From: Holophagae bacterium
Lineage (GTDB): Bacteria; Acidobacteriota; Thermoanaerobaculia; Thermoanaerobaculales; Sulfomarinibacteraceae
Length of the DNA stretch: 32,045 nucleotides
Direction: 5' to 3'
Assembly (NCBI GenBank): GCA_003105185.1
Contig: PQAJ01000047.1
Location: forward strand, 4,737 to 36,781
This document shows, piece by piece, positions 11,862 through 19,859 of the stretch (the stretch's first letter is position 1; every line of letters begins with the position of its first letter). Position numbers and translations under genes: made by a program. Under the pieces are notes generated by a model, which was not told the origin of the DNA, did not search any database, and was given only the letters and a program-made list of their open reading frames with translations.

Positions 11862-11879
11862 CGGCGGTCAGGACCGCCG
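11862..11879. terminator. Compact palindrome between convergent genes
   Basis: CGGCGGTC-AG-GACCGCCG, perfect 8 bp arms; contains the TGA stop of the minus-strand WS/DGAT gene. Confidence 0.45.
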
Positions 11880-13289
11880 AGCCGCTGGTGCCGCCTGGAA
11901 CTCCTCGGGCGCCGACATCATGGCGCGCAGCTCCTCATGGAAGCCGGCGACGATCGCGTCGGGATCCGGGACCAGTCCGGAGTCGGTGACGACGCCGACG
12001 CGGACCTCGCCGGCGTAGCTGATGATGCTGACGCCGAGGCCGAGACGGGCCGACTGCGGGACCCAGAACATGATGCTGCGCACGGGCGCGCCGGCGAGGT
12101 AGAGCGTCTGGCGCGGCCCCGGCACGTTGGTCATGACCGCGGTCGCCTTGGATCCGAAGAACCGGACGGCCTGGGTCTCGACGGCGGGTGTCGTCATGCC
12201 GATCGCATCGAGGATGGCGTAGGTCACCGCCGCCTCTGCCGAGTTCTTGATCGCGTCCATGCGCTCCTTGAGCACGCGCAGCCGCTCCCCGCGGTCGGCG
12301 ATGCCGACCGGCAGGGCGAGGAAGACCAGGCCGAAGCGGTTGCCGAGCAGCTCGACCTCGTCGTCGGGCCGCAGGTTGACCGGGAGCACAGCGCGCAGGT
12401 CGAGGCCGTCTGGCCGCGCGCCGCGTTGCACCATGTAGCTGCGCAGCGCACCGGCGACGCCGGCGAGCAGCACGTCGTTGATCGTCGCGCCGACCTTCTT
12501 GCCGAAGGCCTTGACGTCGTCGAGGGGCAGGACCTCGGACCAGGCGCAGATCTTGCGGGTGCAGAGGCTGCCTCGAAACAGCGTGTCGGGGTCGGACGGC
12601 ATGGCGGCAAGGCGAGCCGTGATCCCGACCGCGGTCGCCCCCTGGCGCAGCGCGGCCTTGGCCCGCTCCGGATCGAGCACGGTCCGCAGCCCGCGGTTGG
12701 TCGTTCGGCGGGCCGAGCGGAAAGCGTTGTCCACGACCTCCGGCAGCCAGGTCCCGCCCCCGAGCGGCCGCCGGTGGCGGCGCTGCCGGCGGGCCACGGC
12801 CGAGCCGGCCGGGGAGTCGTCGGTCATGCTGAGCATCACACGGACGAGGGCGACGCCGTCGGCGATGCAGTGGTGGAGACGGGCGACCAGCGCCGATCCA
12901 CCGCAGTAGTTCTCGATGTACTGGAACTGCCAGAGCGGCTTGCTGTAGTCGAGCGGCGTGCTCATCAGGACGCTGACCATCTCCTGGAGCTCGGTCTTGC
13001 CGGCGGGATCGGGGAGCGCCACGCGGAGCAGGTGGTGGCGGAGGTTGAAGTGGCGGTCCTCGACCCAGTGCGGACGGCCGAAGGGCAGGGGCGACTCGAT
13101 GACCCGTTGGCGAAAGCGGTCGTAGCACATCAGGCGGTCCTCGATGAGCTCCTTGAGCTGACGGAACTCGAGCCGCTCGGCGAACGACATCACGCCGGTG
13201 ATCGTCATCAGGTTGGTGGGGTGCTCCATCCGCCACCAGGCGGCGTCGACGTTCGCAAGCGGTGTGCCCTCGCCGAAACCCACGACCAT
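11868..13289 (-). CDS. WS/DGAT family wax ester synthase/diacylglycerol O-acyltransferase
   Basis: Catalytic HHxxxDG in RLHHCIADGVALVRVMLSM; N-terminal MVVGFGEGTPLANVDAAWWRMEHPTNLMTITGVM; TNVPGPRQTLYLAGAPVRSIMFWVPQ typical of the C-terminal domain. Longer ORF start at 13334 is possible. Confidence 0.93.
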   Translation of the reverse strand: MVVGFGEGTPLANVDAAWWRMEHPTNLMTITGVMSFAERLEFRQLKELIEDRLMCYDRFRQRVIESPLPFGRPHWVEDRHFNLRHHLLRVALPDPAGKTELQEMVSVLMSTPLDYSKPLWQFQYIENYCGGSALVARLHHCIADGVALVRVMLSMTDDSPAGSAVARRQRRHRRPLGGGTWLPEVVDNAFRSARRTTNRGLRTVLDPERAKAALRQGATAVGITARLAAMPSDPDTLFRGSLCTRKICAWSEVLPLDDVKAFGKKVGATINDVLLAGVAGALRSYMVQRGARPDGLDLRAVLPVNLRPDDEVELLGNRFGLVFLALPVGIADRGERLRVLKERMDAIKNSAEAAVTYAILDAIGMTTPAVETQAVRFFGSKATAVMTNVPGPRQTLYLAGAPVRSIMFWVPQSARLGLGVSIISYAGEVRVGVVTDSGLVPDPDAIVAGFHEELRAMMSAPEEFQAAPAARRS

Positions 13290-13420
13290 GAACCCCTCCC
13301 TCGCGACCGCGAAACCGATTGCTGTTCTCAACACTCTAGCATGTCATGAGGCGAGCGGCGTCCGGCCGTGGGGCTCGTCGGGGTTGGAGCGCCGAGGCGG
13401 GACCGGCTGTCCGTGAATCC

Positions 13421-13590
13421 TCAGTCGGAGGCCCGGTGCGGCTCGCGCCAGCCGTCCTTCCATCGCCGCAGCGCGGCGAAGACCTCCGTCTCGTCGACGA
13501 GGGCCCGCCCGGCGAAGCGCTCGGCCGCCGCGATCACCGCGGGCTGCGTGCACCGCAGGAAGGGATTGGTTTCAAGCTCGAGGGGATGCC
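13421..13590 (-). pseudogene. gloB: Remnant of hydroxyacylglutathione hydrolase (glyoxalase II) C-terminus
   Basis: HPLELETNPFLRCTQPAVIAAAERFAGRALVDETEVFAALRRWKDGWREPHRASD matches the conserved GloB C-terminal signature (TNPFLR...FAxLRxWKDxF/W); the metal-binding N-terminal domain (THxHxDH) is absent and the upstream frame is occupied by the divergent ATP-grasp gene. Confidence 0.6.
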
Positions 13591-13648: not shown

Positions 13649-14920
13649 ATGAGAAGCACGGGCACTCGCTACCTGATCGTTGCCGACCCGCTGGAGACGC
13701 TGAATCCCGAGTTCGACCTCGGGGTCTGCGTGAGCCGGGAGCTGATCGCACGGGGGATCGCGGTCGACTACCTCGACCTGCTGGCCAGCGATCCTCGGCA
13801 GCCGAGCGAGCGCTACCTCGCGACGCTGCCGGTCCGGGAAGTCTTGTCGTCGGACGCCGGGCGCGACCCGTTCTGGGAGCTCGGCCCGACCCGCCTCGCC
13901 TCGGTCAGGGACTACCGGGTGATCCTGCAGCGGATGGACCCGCCGGTGGACGCGGCGTTCATCGCCCACAGCCGTCACTTCGAGGCGGTGCCGGAGAGCA
14001 TCGTGCAGATCAACCGGCCGCCGGCGACCTACACGCTGTCAGAGCACACCGTGATCCTGCGCTATCCCGAGTTCGCCGCGCCGACCACGGTCTGCGGCAG
14101 CTTCGAGGAGCTGGTGGCGGCGGTCCGGCGGCAGCCGGTGGAGGCCGTGCTCAAGCCGAAGAGCACGTGCTCGGGAAAGGGTGTGAGCTTCGTGGCCCAG
14201 TCCGCGCCGGCGGATGAGCTGCGCGGGTTCTGGGAGCAGTGGCGTCCGGAGGTCATCGTTCAGCCCTACCTGCCGGCCATCGAGGCGAGCGGCGACCTCC
14301 GCATCCTGACCATCAACGACCGGGTGCTGGGGTCGGTGCTGCGCGTCCCGGCGCCAGGGTCACGGCTCGCCAATCTCCACCAGGGCGCCTCGCCGGCTCG
14401 GTTGGAGCCGAGCCAGCGCCAGCTCGACGCGTGCCGCGCGGTGGCGGCCGACCTCAACCCGATGGGCCTGCACCTGCTCGGTCTCGACTTCATCGGCGAG
14501 CACCTGACCGAGGTCAACTTCACGTCGCCGACGACGATCGTGCAGATCAACGAGGTCAACGGCATCCGCGCCGACATCGACCTGGTCGACGAGCTGGAGC
14601 GGATGTGGCGGGAGCGCGCCGGGTCGCCGCCGGTCGCCCAGCCGGCCCGGCGTAACCGCCTGATCTGCAAGGACCGCCCCGTTCCCGAGGGCTGGGTCGT
14701 GATCGGCCAGGCGCACAGCCCGGCCTGCCCGGGCGCCGGGGACAACGCGTGGATCATCAAGCGGCCGGGGCGCCGCGAGGTGGTGGCGGCGGCGTCACCG
14801 GTTCCGGCCGGGTACGCCCGGGTCCGTCCGACCCGCTCGGCGCACTGTCCGGGGGACGGCGACAACGCCTGGGTGATCGAGCGCGGAGCCGGGGCAGGAG
14901 GCGACCGCGGCGCGGGCTGA
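13649..14920 (+). CDS. Glutathione synthase-like ATP-grasp protein with tandem C-terminal Cys-containing repeats
   Basis: MRSTGTRYLIVADPLETLNPEFDLGVCVSRELIARGIAVDYLDL...RMDPPVDAAF...INRPPATYTLSEH...VLKPKSTCSGKGVSFV...VIVQPYLPAIEASGDLRILTINDRVLGSVLRVP...LDFIGEHLTEVNFTSPTTIVQINEVNG: gshB-like ATP-grasp motifs. The ORF-track start at 13346 is too far upstream. Confidence 0.85.
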   Translation: MRSTGTRYLIVADPLETLNPEFDLGVCVSRELIARGIAVDYLDLLASDPRQPSERYLATLPVREVLSSDAGRDPFWELGPTRLASVRDYRVILQRMDPPVDAAFIAHSRHFEAVPESIVQINRPPATYTLSEHTVILRYPEFAAPTTVCGSFEELVAAVRRQPVEAVLKPKSTCSGKGVSFVAQSAPADELRGFWEQWRPEVIVQPYLPAIEASGDLRILTINDRVLGSVLRVPAPGSRLANLHQGASPARLEPSQRQLDACRAVAADLNPMGLHLLGLDFIGEHLTEVNFTSPTTIVQINEVNGIRADIDLVDELERMWRERAGSPPVAQPARRNRLICKDRPVPEGWVVIGQAHSPACPGAGDNAWIIKRPGRREVVAAASPVPAGYARVRPTRSAHCPGDGDNAWVIERGAGAGGDRGAG

Positions 14921-14928: not shown

Positions 14929-15660
14929 TCAGGATCCATCGGGTGCGGCGGCCGACCGCGAGGGCAGGTTGCGGCCGATGAACATCTCGAGGCGCAGGCG
15001 GTCGGAGCCTTCGAATGAGACGAAGCGGACGCCGACGCCTTGCATCTGCTCCCGTTTCGGGTCGGTCGCGCGCATGATCTCGGCGTTGCCGCGTATCGGC
15101 TTCGCCTCGTCGGGCACGACCATCTCGAAGCCGAAGATCGTGCCGACCGGGAACTGGGTCACGCCCCGCAGCAGCATGCCGGAGGTCGAGATGTTGTCGA
15201 TCTGGGCCATCAGCCGCAGCGGTCGACCATCGGCGAAAAGCTGCACCCGTGCCGGGATGCGAACCGGAACTCTCGACGCCGGCTGTGCCAACTCCTCGAC
15301 CGCCGTGACCAGGCGGCGCTCGATCTCGTCCGCGATCACGACCCGGTTGGCGCCCTTGCCGATCAGGGCCTGGGCGGCCTCAGAGTAGGGCGTTTCGCTG
15401 ATCAGGACAAGGCCTGCCCGGCGGCACGCCGAGCCCTTGGCGCGGGCAGCGTCGAGAAAGCGATTGAGCGCCTCGCGGGACACCGGGAAGCCGATGATCA
15501 CGACGTCGAACGCGGTGCCCTGGACGAGCTCGAGCGTGGTCTGGTCCCAACGCACCCGGTGGAGGTCAGCCCGAATCTGGTGCAGGGTATCGGCGATCCT
15601 CCGGTGGGTGGCATCATCGACCCTGGTGACCAGGACCTGGATGGCGCCGCCGGCTGGCAT
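14929..15660 (-). CDS. PilZ domain protein with N-terminal receiver-like/unknown domain
   Basis: C-terminal VRIPARVQLFADGRPLRLMAQIDNISTSGMLLRG...GFEMVVPDEAKPIRGNAEIMRATDPKREQMQGVGVRFVSFEGSDRLRLEMFI is PilZ-like (N.S..G); N-terminal part has Rossmann/REC-like DVVIIGFPV. ATG at 15660 (TTG at 15669 in the ORF track). Confidence 0.75.
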   Translation of the reverse strand: MPAGGAIQVLVTRVDDATHRRIADTLHQIRADLHRVRWDQTTLELVQGTAFDVVIIGFPVSREALNRFLDAARAKGSACRRAGLVLISETPYSEAAQALIGKGANRVVIADEIERRLVTAVEELAQPASRVPVRIPARVQLFADGRPLRLMAQIDNISTSGMLLRGVTQFPVGTIFGFEMVVPDEAKPIRGNAEIMRATDPKREQMQGVGVRFVSFEGSDRLRLEMFIGRNLPSRSAAAPDGS

Positions 15661-15674
15661 ACTCGTCAATTATA
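15661..15674 (-). promoter_or_regulatory. Candidate -10 box (TATAAT) 8 nt upstream of the PilZ ATG
   Basis: Minus strand GGTATAATTGACGAGTATG; perfect TATAAT in a very GC-rich window, no strong -35. Confidence 0.35.
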
Positions 15675-15681
15675 CCGGCGG

Positions 15682-18600
15682 TCAGGGTCCTCCCGCTGTG
15701 ACCGGGCGGACGACGGCCGGGATGTAGATCGGGTCGCCGCTCTCGCCGTCAATCACCGAGGCGTGGGCGACGTACCGCGCACCCTGGTCAACGCTGGTCA
15801 GGGTGGCCCACGCCGTGCCGGTGAAGCCGAACTGGCCGGAGAGCAGCCGCTCGACCTGGACGAAGCGGGTGGCCGGGACGAGCACCTCGAGCTCGCCGAT
15901 GAAGTCGCCGTCGTCGGCGAACGCGCGAACCGTGACCGTGATGTCCTCTCCTGAGACCGAGGTGATGCCGAGGTTGGTGCGGAAGCCGCTGGCCGAGCTG
16001 AGGCCGGCGAGCACTGCGACCTCGCCCGTGCGGATCAACTGATCGGCGGTAACCGTGGGCACGGACTGACCGTAGGTGCCGGTGGGATCATCGTTGTAGG
16101 TGCGGCTGAACACGGCGACGCCGGGGGCACTGGGCTCCAGATCAAGGGAACCGGAGCCGCTCGTGCCGAAGGTCTCGCGGACGACGTCCTCGAGCTCGAG
16201 CGCTGCGAGCGGCGGCACCTCGAGCAACCGGAAGATGGTCGAGCTGCCGGGCTCGGCGGGCTGGAAGGCGGCGTCGATGCGGGCGCTCTCGGCGGCCCGG
16301 GACACGATTGACAGGTCGGAGCGCCACATGGTCCCGTTGGCGCCCGGGTTGGAGGCGACGACCGGGACCAGGAAGCTCGGCGGGGGAGAAGCGAGGTCGA
16401 CTGCGACCGGCAGAACCAGGGTCGGGTCGTGGGAGCCGTCGTCGACCACCGACGCGAAGGCGAGGTAACGTGCGGTCGGATCACCGGCGACAAGCTCGAG
16501 GAAGGCGCCGCGCAGCGCTGCTGCAGTGACACCCTGGAAGACGTCGGTGAGCTGCCGGAACCCGAACGGCTGGGCGTTGAGCGTGCGGCGCGCGAGCTCG
16601 CTGCCGTCCGGGGCCAACAGGGTGTACTCGACTGAGAGCGAGCTGTCCGCGAGGTTGAGCACCCCGAGGTTGGAGTGGAAGCCGTCGTTGGCGGCGAGCC
16701 CCCCGATGACATAGGTCACCGACCCTGCGAGCTCCTGCTCGCCGCCGAGGGCCGGGATGAACTGGCCGTAGGTGCCGCCGTCCTCGTCGGCGTAGGTTCG
16801 CGAAACCGCGACCAGGCCGGGCTGCGAGGCGTTGAGCGCAACCCCGCCGGCGCCGACGTGGCCGAGGTCGGCGACCAGGTTGGCGAGCGACCGCTGCTGC
16901 CCGGCTGGCAGCGCCAGGGTCAGATCGGCAGGGGCGTCGGGAGCAGGGTTGCCGGGACGGAATCTGAGGTCGACGACGATGTCGTCGGCGGTCGGATTGA
17001 CCAGGAAGGCGCGGGAGCGCCACTGCGCGTCGCCGAGACCGGTGGTGCTGGCGGCGGCCGGGAAGGCCGACGCCTCGAACGCGGCCGGATCCTCGGCCAC
17101 GTAGGCGCTCAGCGGGACTGTGACTCGGGGCAGCGAGGGGTCATTGGACGAGATCGTCAGGGCGCCCCGGACCGGACCCGGCGGGGCCCCCTGGAGCCCG
17201 ATCGGGAAGGGCAGCGTCTGTCCCGGGGCGAGGACCACCGGGAAGACGAAGAACTCGGGCACGGTGAAGGGCGCGTCGGCGGCGATCGCGGTCATCACGA
17301 GGTCGTCGGTGCCGGTGTTCGCGATCGTCGCGGTCGCAGTGCCGGTGATGGCGACGAGCCCGAGATCGATCGGCGTCGGGGTGATCGCGAGCCGCGGGGC
17401 GCCGACACCGGTGCCGGTGAGGGAGACCATGTGCTCGGGCCGCGCGGGATCGTTGGTCGCGAGGACCAGGGTGCCGGTGTGGGCCCCGACCTGGCTCGGC
17501 TGGAAGCGCAGGAAGATCGTGGTCGACTGGGCCGGGCCGACCTGTGCGGGGATCGCGCTGGCGAGGGCGAAGCCGTCACCCGAGATCGTGCCGGTGAGCG
17601 TCAGCGGCTCGGCGCCGAAGTTGAAGACGTTGATCGATCCTTCGCCAGTGGCTCCGATCGGCACGTTCCCCAGGTTGGCGCTCGAGGAGGCCTGTATCGT
17701 GGGGTCGGCGAAGCGCACGCTGCGCCCCGTCACCGGCAGGTAAGCCAGCCCATCGGGGTAGGACGGGTCGTTGCTGGTGACGAACACGTAGGCCGACTGG
17801 CTGCCGGTCGAGGACGAGGTGAACTCGATCACCAAGTCGACCGCCTCACCGGGGGCGAGCGTGAGTGGCAGCTCGTCGGGAGCGGCGATGCGGAACTGGG
17901 CGGAGCTCGAGGACTCGATCGAGGAGATCACGAGCTCGGAGCCGCCGGTGTTCGTGACCGGCACGACGATCGGTGCGGTCTCGCCGCGCAGGACCTGGCC
18001 GGCGTCGAGGTCCGGGAAGTCGCGTCCGAAGTCGATGTCCGGCTCGGCGGCCGGCGAGAGGTAGGCGAGGATCCGGCTGCCGGGATCGAGGACGACGCCG
18101 GTCGGAGTCGCCGAGACCGGCACCTCGAGGGTCTGCTCGGCGACGGCCTCGAGCCAGATCCGGTGGTCCTCGGAGCCGGCAACGGTCTGGATACGGACGT
18201 CTATCGGGGTCCGGAAGTAGGGGGCGTTCGAGTGCTCCTGGGTGACGGTCAGGCGGACCGCCGGGCCAGACACGGCTTCCCACTCGTACTGGAAGCGGGG
18301 CCGATTGGCGCCGTACACCCACTGCTCGAAGAACCAGTCGAGGTCGATGCCGGAGGCCGCTTCCATTGCCGCCTTGAAACCCTGGGTGGTGGCGGAGCCG
18401 GCGGCGAAGGCCTCCCGGTAGGCGTGCAGGCCGTCGAAGAAGGCCTCGTCGCCGACCACGTAGCGCAGCATGTGGAGGATCATGCCGCCGCCGTCGTAGA
18501 CGGTGTTCGAGAACGCAACCGGGTTGTCGTAGAGCGCGCCCTTGTAGTAGAAGAGCGAGTCGGCGTCGCGCCGGTACTGGTCGAGGTACTCAAGGCCGTA

Positions 18601-19779
18601 GGTCTCCTCGGCCCACACGAACTCGGCATAGGTGGCGAAGCTCTCGTTGAGCCACAGCTCGCGCCAGTCGTCGCAGGTGACGAAGTCGCCCCACCACGAG
18701 TGGCCGAGCTCGTGGACGTTGAGCCACTCCATCCACGGGTCGCCGAAGAAGTCGCCGATCGTGGTCAGGGTCTGGTGCTCCATGCCGCCGCCGAAGGCCG
18801 CGGTCAGGTTGCCGTACTTCTCCTCGACGAACGGGTACTCGCCGAAGCGGGTGGCGAGGACGCGGATCAGCTCGGGCGTGATCGCGAGGTCGGCCTCGCC
18901 GGCCTCCGCCCGCTCGGGGTACATGTAGGCCACCACCGGCATCGTCGATCCGTCCTGCGCCTCGTACGGCCACTCGCGGTAGGCGTAGTTGGAGACGTCC
19001 ATGACCACCAGGTAGGTGGCGACCGGGTACCGCGACGACCAGGTCGTGGTGGCGGTGCCGTCGCCGTTGTCGGAACGGTCGACCTCGAGGCCGTTGGAGG
19101 CCACGGTCAGCTCGGCCGGAGCGGTCACGGTCAGGTCGACAGTGGCCTTGTCATCGGGCCGGTCGTTGCATGGGAACCAGACCCGGGCGCCGAAGGGCTC
19201 GGCGAAGGTGAAGATCTCGGGGAAGCCGCGGTGCGAGTACCAGTTGACGCCGTCGCCGAAGCGCGAGGCGCGCCCGCCGTATGTTATCTGGAGGGTCACC
19301 GAGTCGCCGGCCGCGAGGGCGTCGGGGAGCAGGGCCGCGAGCCGGTCGTCGGCGTGGGAGAACGGTAGCGAGCGCGGCGAGTCCGCGGGCAGTCGGCCGT
19401 CGGCGAGCAGGGTGACGGAGAGCACCCGCAGGCCGAGGTCGGCGTCGAGCTCGATGGTGCGCAGGCCCTCCCTCACCGCTGTCACGTCGATCGTCGCCGT
19501 ACCGGACAGCAGCTGCTCGCCGATGTCCAGGAACAGGTCGAGGTCGTAGTGGGTGACGTCGATCGGCGACGGCTCGGGGACCGGCGCCCAGCCCTTGGGC
19601 GTGGCGGTCCCGAGCGCGAGCGCGCGCTGGTAGCGCGCCTGCTTGGCGGCGATCTCGTCGGCGTGCCGGGCCGCGGCAGCGGGCAGCCGGCTGCTGTCCC
19701 CGAGTTCATCGACTTGTGCGAGCGCTGCCGGGGCGACCAGCAGGACGACCAGGATGGCGGTGAGATGGCGACGCATCAT
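15682..19779 (-). CDS. Secreted M1 family (gluzincin) aminopeptidase-like metallopeptidase with ASH/choice-of-anchor-D domains and a duplicated C-terminal module
   Basis: VHELGHSWWGDFVTCDDWRELWLNESFATYAEF (HExxH-18-E zinc motif) and FGGGMEHQTLTT (GxMEN-like) in the M1 domain; three repeats of the VTNTGGSELVISSI...ITSNDP type; signal peptide MMRRHLTAILVVLLVAPAALA from ATG 19779. Confidence 0.93.
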   Translation of the reverse strand: MMRRHLTAILVVLLVAPAALAQVDELGDSSRLPAAAARHADEIAAKQARYQRALALGTATPKGWAPVPEPSPIDVTHYDLDLFLDIGEQLLSGTATIDVTAVREGLRTIELDADLGLRVLSVTLLADGRLPADSPRSLPFSHADDRLAALLPDALAAGDSVTLQITYGGRASRFGDGVNWYSHRGFPEIFTFAEPFGARVWFPCNDRPDDKATVDLTVTAPAELTVASNGLEVDRSDNGDGTATTTWSSRYPVATYLVVMDVSNYAYREWPYEAQDGSTMPVVAYMYPERAEAGEADLAITPELIRVLATRFGEYPFVEEKYGNLTAAFGGGMEHQTLTTIGDFFGDPWMEWLNVHELGHSWWGDFVTCDDWRELWLNESFATYAEFVWAEETYGLEYLDQYRRDADSLFYYKGALYDNPVAFSNTVYDGGGMILHMLRYVVGDEAFFDGLHAYREAFAAGSATTQGFKAAMEAASGIDLDWFFEQWVYGANRPRFQYEWEAVSGPAVRLTVTQEHSNAPYFRTPIDVRIQTVAGSEDHRIWLEAVAEQTLEVPVSATPTGVVLDPGSRILAYLSPAAEPDIDFGRDFPDLDAGQVLRGETAPIVVPVTNTGGSELVISSIESSSSAQFRIAAPDELPLTLAPGEAVDLVIEFTSSSTGSQSAYVFVTSNDPSYPDGLAYLPVTGRSVRFADPTIQASSSANLGNVPIGATGEGSINVFNFGAEPLTLTGTISGDGFALASAIPAQVGPAQSTTIFLRFQPSQVGAHTGTLVLATNDPARPEHMVSLTGTGVGAPRLAITPTPIDLGLVAITGTATATIANTGTDDLVMTAIAADAPFTVPEFFVFPVVLAPGQTLPFPIGLQGAPPGPVRGALTISSNDPSLPRVTVPLSAYVAEDPAAFEASAFPAAASTTGLGDAQWRSRAFLVNPTADDIVVDLRFRPGNPAPDAPADLTLALPAGQQRSLANLVADLGHVGAGGVALNASQPGLVAVSRTYADEDGGTYGQFIPALGGEQELAGSVTYVIGGLAANDGFHSNLGVLNLADSSLSVEYTLLAPDGSELARRTLNAQPFGFRQLTDVFQGVTAAALRGAFLELVAGDPTARYLAFASVVDDGSHDPTLVLPVAVDLASPPPSFLVPVVASNPGANGTMWRSDLSIVSRAAESARIDAAFQPAEPGSSTIFRLLEVPPLAALELEDVVRETFGTSGSGSLDLEPSAPGVAVFSRTYNDDPTGTYGQSVPTVTADQLIRTGEVAVLAGLSSASGFRTNLGITSVSGEDITVTVRAFADDGDFIGELEVLVPATRFVQVERLLSGQFGFTGTAWATLTSVDQGARYVAHASVIDGESGDPIYIPAVVRPVTAGGP

Positions 19780-19796
19780 GACCCTCCAGCCGGAAG

Positions 19797-19802
19797 ATTG
19801 TA
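19797..19802 (-). promoter_or_regulatory. Candidate -10 box (TACAAT) for the M1 gene
   Basis: Minus strand TACAATCTTCCGGCTGGAGGGTCATGATG; also contains an SD-like GGAGGG before the ATG. Confidence 0.3.
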
Positions 19803-19859
19803 GCGGGTCCGTGCCGGGTCTGCTTGCGGCGTCGGCCGCCGTGGGGCACACTGGCCGCG

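Follow-up and report, generated by a model that had tools for sequence, protein, structure and literature searches.

What is the additional C-terminal segment of the GshB-like ligase encoded at 13649-14920 of the window (the whole 32,045-nucleotide stretch of DNA analysed), and does it signify that the enzyme makes something other than glutathione, as originally predicted? The ligase part of the protein comprises the following features.

13649-14920, + strand: GshB-like ATP-grasp ligase and tail domain in one frame, 423 aa plus stop (Pfam, NCBIfam)
13670-14020, + strand: GSH-S N-terminal domain (GSH-S_N), residues 8-124 (Pfam)
14051-14560, + strand: GSH-S ATP-grasp domain (GSH-S_ATP), residues 135-304 (Pfam)

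The ligase has the GSH-S_N plus GSH-S_ATP architecture of GshB, with Pfam scores on the 423-aa protein well above the cut-offs for both domains (GSH-S_ATP 2.3e-30, 105.7 bits versus 23; GSH-S_N 7.6e-9, 36.1 bits versus 21.3). Its best NCBIfam match is glutathione synthase NF003573, at 163.5 bits versus a cut-off of 272, and the GshB model TIGR01380 gives 153.4 bits versus 299; since the equivalog cut-off is reached for neither model, the ligase is called GshB-like only. Among proteins of solved structure, 1gsa, the glutathione synthetase of E. coli, is nearest to the ligase (E 5e-18), and the two have the GD-RIL, NL and GLD-IG-LTE-N-TSPT segments in common. The C-terminal catalytic segment GLD...TE.N...TSPT, whose residues have a role in Mg binding, is well kept (GLDFIGEHLTEVNFTSPT versus GLDIIGDRLTEINVTSPT in 1gsa), GLDFIG/TEVN of the window ligase aligning with GLDIIG/TEIN of E. 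coli GshB. The two proteins differ in a loop that reads KPLDGMGG in E. coli and KPKSTCSG in the window, and in the C-terminal tail, which is absent from GshB; as had been proposed, the tail lies outside the canonical glutathione synthetase, the Pfam GSH-S domains stopping at residue 304 of 423. To judge from its sequence, the window enzyme is a divergent GshB-like ligase.

The tail itself consists of two tandem repeats, one of which is degenerate.

14651-14887, + strand: two-repeat tail domain, modelled as all-beta (AlphaFold), its homologue in three MAGs of the sister genus being an ORF of its own that overlaps the ligase gene
14660-14779, + strand: repeat 1 (C-x5-P-x-G-W...C...N..IKRPGRRE), the conserved copy, both Cys present in 4/4 homologues
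14780-14887, + strand: repeat 2, the degenerate copy, its first Cys replaced by Ala in the window and no Cys present in the sister genus

VPEGW begins at 14681 in one repeat and VPAGY at 14801 in the other, a distance of exactly 120 nt or 40 residues, and the two repeats are identical at 14 of 30 residues. The best internal 30-residue match in the tail is 15, as compared with 6.3 ± 1.0 and a maximum of 13 in 2000 shuffles. Frame, spacing and shuffle test agree with the original prediction of tandem 40-residue Cys repeats of 120 nt period on a GshB-like ATP-grasp protein; the repeats are present within the interval 14681-14890 given for them, but the conserved unit is wider (about 14651-14887) and starts at NRLIC. 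The 120-nt repeats are not reported by Tandem Repeats Finder because their DNA is only 60% identical, and the duplication is therefore not recent. Third-position GC (0.91 in the tail, 0.94 in the enzyme) shows that the composition of the tail is that of coding DNA, and dN/dS between the four available tails, as ratios from dN and dS, is about 0.18-0.61 (0.39-0.61 versus the window, 0.18-0.30 within the sister genus g3). The tail repeats are genuine, they code for protein, and purifying selection acts on them.

Conservation within the repeats is uneven. Cys340 and Cys360 of repeat 1 (window numbering) are kept in all four homologues, and repeat 2 of the window has one Cys left, Cys400. The CPGxGDNAW motif, previously regarded as conserved and as a possible modification, metal or substrate-presenting site, does not hold up in either respect: repeat 1 of the three g3 tails reads CPGDGANAW, CDGEGANAR and CDGDGPNAR, with CPG in one and CDG in two, and repeat 2 of all three has lost both the Cys-Pro-Gly and the DNAW motif; a catalytic role for the motif was rejected on the same grounds. 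There is hardly any variation in IKxPGRREVV and SPxPxGY across the tail homologues, and the pattern that persists is C-x5-P-x-G-[WY]-x10-C...N..IKxPGRREVV, a rare repeat whose other carriers look secreted.

The AlphaFold model of the tail (five sequences) has a pLDDT of 93.6 and a pTM of 0.82, with three of five tail models at 93 and the other two at 77 and 73, and is all-beta, with six strands, three per repeat. In the full-length model (pLDDT 58) the tail stands apart as its own domain, with values of about 80-90, and the linker ahead of it has low confidence; the ATP-grasp part is poor and unusable for docking the tail on the ligase. The tail is thus predicted to be a compact, independently folding two-repeat beta domain rather than a flexible substrate, which argues against its being a substrate-presenting module. 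By sequence, no solved relative of the tail was found, and a Foldseek search with the tail model produced no significant match, neither in the PDB nor in the set of viral models; the top viral-model match, Tetraselmis virus 1 A0A2P0VNP0, has a probability of 0.82 but an E-value of 0.95. The top PDB match is the MABP domain of MVB12B (3tow; E 0.52, probability 0.23, TM 0.31). MABP is likewise a beta domain made up of repeats, with motifs resembling P-x-G-Y/F; the tail was not assigned to this beta-prism, the E-value and TM score not being significant and the tail having no Pfam match.

The origin of the tail is indicated by comparison with the sister genus at the following feature.

14612-14650, + strand: fusion junction/linker, where the overlapping stop and start of the sister genus are both lost (DNA alignment)

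In three MAGs of genus g3 (G002, G010 and G014, corresponding to loci L059, L058 and L060) the tail homologue is a separate ORF located directly downstream of the ligase in another frame, an arrangement that was no part of the original prediction. It encodes a protein of about 90 residues, and its ATG or GTG start overlaps the ligase TGA by 8 nt (gatggctga, ggtggctga). In the DNA alignment of the window junction with these relatives, both the TGA and the GTG/ATG are lost through indels and substitutions, so that one open frame results, and no in-frame ATG, GTG or TTG is found in the tail frame of the window between the junction and 14699. A fused gene is the natural reading of this junction.

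We consider it likely, with a probability of roughly 0.6, that the tail is a small all-beta non-catalytic partner, encoded elsewhere by a separate overlapping gene and here fused to the GshB-like ligase. In the sister genus, the small tail protein is probably made together with the ligase, because its start codon overlaps the ligase stop. In the window lineage, as the sequence shows, indels and substitutions at the junction have deleted stop and start, merging the two frames. The tail may bind the ligase or a client, affecting stability, assembly, localisation or activity, while the ligase, given its family and neighbourhood, would add the last residue in glutathione-type synthesis. Overlap and fusion are suggestive of such a partner role, which is the most likely one; counted against it are the fact that only four genomes carry the tail and the secreted appearance of the distant relatives of the repeat.

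The partner reading has to be weighed against the possibility that a small unrelated gene, situated between gshB and the convergent gene downstream, was fused by accident and is neutral to the ligase.

14929-15669, - strand: PilZ-domain gene, convergent with the ligase and syntenic in genera g1, g3 and g5

Orthologues 64-76% identical to the window ligase, which belong to several genera of its family, stop directly behind the ATP-grasp domain, and the tail is therefore not intrinsic to the enzyme. That these ligases manage without it, that the tail is confined to two genera and that just a single genome has the fusion are all consistent with a passenger. However, the purifying selection noted above extends to comparisons with the fused form, and an open and, in the model, well-folded domain has been retained after fusion, making an accidental passenger possible but unlikely.

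The ligase gene tree does not settle the relations among the window, g3, g5 and g2+g7; it leans to window+g5 (79/81), and a window+g3 clade is not rejected (p-AU 0.105). As the tree does not group the window with the tail-bearing genus, a single origin of the tail is not established. Tail-less orthologous ligases are syntenic in genus g5, and either a single gain of the tail followed by its loss in g5 or a transfer could account for the distribution.

The window comes from an uncultured bacterium of the Thermoanaerobaculales (Acidobacteriota), the order to which the MAGs of its named relatives also belong, and a match to the window protein is present in 24 of 60 relatives. A profile built from the four tails, run on 149 genomes of the class, has strong matches only in those four genomes; a fifth genome (G139, the same DNA as L057) is matched at E 4e-11, and samples of 297 and 396 genomes from the phylum contain only scattered extra matches. 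The weak class and phylum matches L036-L038, L040-L046 and L048-L054 were judged from their alignments to be chance. Beyond the phylum, the search for the tail took in collections of plasmids, phages and viruses as well as a single scan of genome contigs; viral contigs, plasmids and phages gave no convincing homologue except a Haliscomenobacter repeat protein (WP_013769094), whose match at E 0.02 is backed by its own repeats. None of the Pfam, NCBIfam or PHROG families matches the tail with an E-value that is meaningful, and a text search found no paper on the repeat motif.

The distant relatives are themselves repeat proteins. A DM9-repeat protein of an uncultured Acidobacteria MAG (L057, 3092-4249) ends in two copies of the Cys repeat of the tail, L039 has two copies, G172 (L047) has a single Cys repeat ahead of a VWA domain, and the Haliscomenobacter hydrossis plasmid protein WP_013769094 (L056, 2503-3246) has five C-x5-IP-x-GW Cys repeats; the gene for the latter lies near two SUMF1/EgtB/PvdO-type genes. 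The core common to the tail and these repeats is C-x5-[IV]P-x-G-[WY]-x8-10-C. Two Cys spaced by P-x-G-[WY] in tandem 40-residue copies are found fully in repeat 1 of the window and only in part in repeat 2. The L057 and Haliscomenobacter proteins follow the same repeat plan as the window tail, with two Cys per repeat, and proteins of this type have two to five copies and, like the tail, an IKRPG-like or IKRI end. They differ in having no ligase, in some cases DM9 or VWA domains, and apparent signal sequences (by inspection, in all of G139, G172, L039 and WP_013769094), whereas the window tail has one degenerate repeat and no signal sequence; inspection of the start of the fused protein and of the g3 ORFs (MADHLDNPKARMNRVIC...) likewise revealed no hydrophobic signal.

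A special case of the partner reading is that the Cys pair of repeat 1 is a redox or metal sensor regulating the ligase. The invariance of both Cys in the four homologues, the recurrence of the Cys-PxG-Cys pattern in the distant repeats and the glutathione-related genomic context in relatives are consistent with this; however, the same two Cys could form a structural disulfide in the apparently secreted distant repeats, one or both are gone from repeat 2, and Pfam and NCBIfam recognise no metal-site signature. We regard such a switch as doubtful, and to the same degree the wider reading in which the tail, a small all-beta protein not described before, is dedicated to GshB-type ligases of the Thermoanaerobaculales as their partner in regulation or assembly, has an overlapping gene in one genus and is fused to the enzyme in another, and senses the cellular thiol state through its Cys pair.

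It is improbable that the fusion was created by an assembly or sequencing error that merged two frames, the real genes being separate as in the sister genus. The fusion is observed in a single MAG assembly, without reads, and the junction lies on a short, GC-rich, imperfect tandem duplication of 10 bp (14617-14638), where indel errors occur. Against this, several indels and substitutions distinguish the junction from its relatives, so one sequencing error would not create the fused frame; start and stop are both gone, and a separate tail would have no usable start codon nearby.

Least probable is a graspetide-type enzyme-substrate RiPP system in which the ATP-grasp enzyme modifies the tail and the repeats are core peptides: an ATP-grasp gene with a short overlapping ORF behind it that is both repetitive and conserved, with enzyme and peptide forming one chain in the window, recalls such systems, but the enzyme best fits the GSH-S families, with RimK-type families weaker, the tail is modelled as a compact, folded beta domain rather than a leader plus flexible core, the repeat motif is kept neither between copies nor between homologues, and most orthologous ligases have no such peptide.

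Returning to the fused partner as the preferred reading, the GshF bifunctional glutathione synthetases also couple an ATP-grasp ligase of the GSH type to a second module. GshF (named in PMC12840475) joins two enzymes, whereas the window protein joins a ligase to a small non-enzymatic beta domain; what the fusion adds to a familiar type of enzyme is a small beta domain that has no name. The locus, with overlapping genes in one genus and a single fused gene in another, offers a clean natural example of how a small partner gene can turn into a domain, and it draws attention to a beta-repeat domain of small size missing from both Pfam and NCBIfam. If the partner role is true, a bacterial enzyme of the GshB type would have in the tail a subunit for its regulation or assembly; our limited literature search found no description of one.

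The neighbourhood of the gene bears on the product of the ligase.

13424-13588, - strand: gloB (glyoxalase II) remnant, C-terminal 55 aa only (HAGH_C 2e-10, TIGR03413 1.6e-7)

This remnant is the only HAGH_C match in the window MAG, and gloB is intact and divergent from gshB in the relative L059. The left flank of the window differs from that of the relatives, which have an intact gloB there; a wax ester synthase/diacylglycerol acyltransferase gene (11868-13334, - strand) lies to the left of the remnant. A glutaredoxin gene adjoins gloB and gshB in L060 (about 1793-2044, - strand); used as a query against the window MAG, in a search run without a positive control, it gave no match. A glutamate-cysteine-ligase-family gene (GCS2) is present in the genome (L063, G000:C28:47462-48334), and a GCS2-type homologue in a relative has EgtA as its best match, below the cut-off. 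PF08886-type GshA had no match anywhere searched, the controls being equally without a match, so that this absence carries no information. Glutathione is a plausible product, as gloB and glutaredoxin in relatives and the glutamate-cysteine-ligase-like gene in the genome suggest. The idea that the tail implies a different peptide or thiol fits poorly with the close orthologues that lack it and with the presence of GloB and glutaredoxin genes near gshB in relatives.

On the other side of the PilZ gene, a long M1-family peptidase with HYDIN/ASH-type Ig-like domains is encoded at 15682-19851 (- strand) of the window, and an M1-peptidase-like frame also follows the PilZ gene in relatives. In three genomes the GCS2-type genes (L063, L062 and L066) are located directly upstream of what appears, by eye, to be a phosphoglucose isomerase frame.
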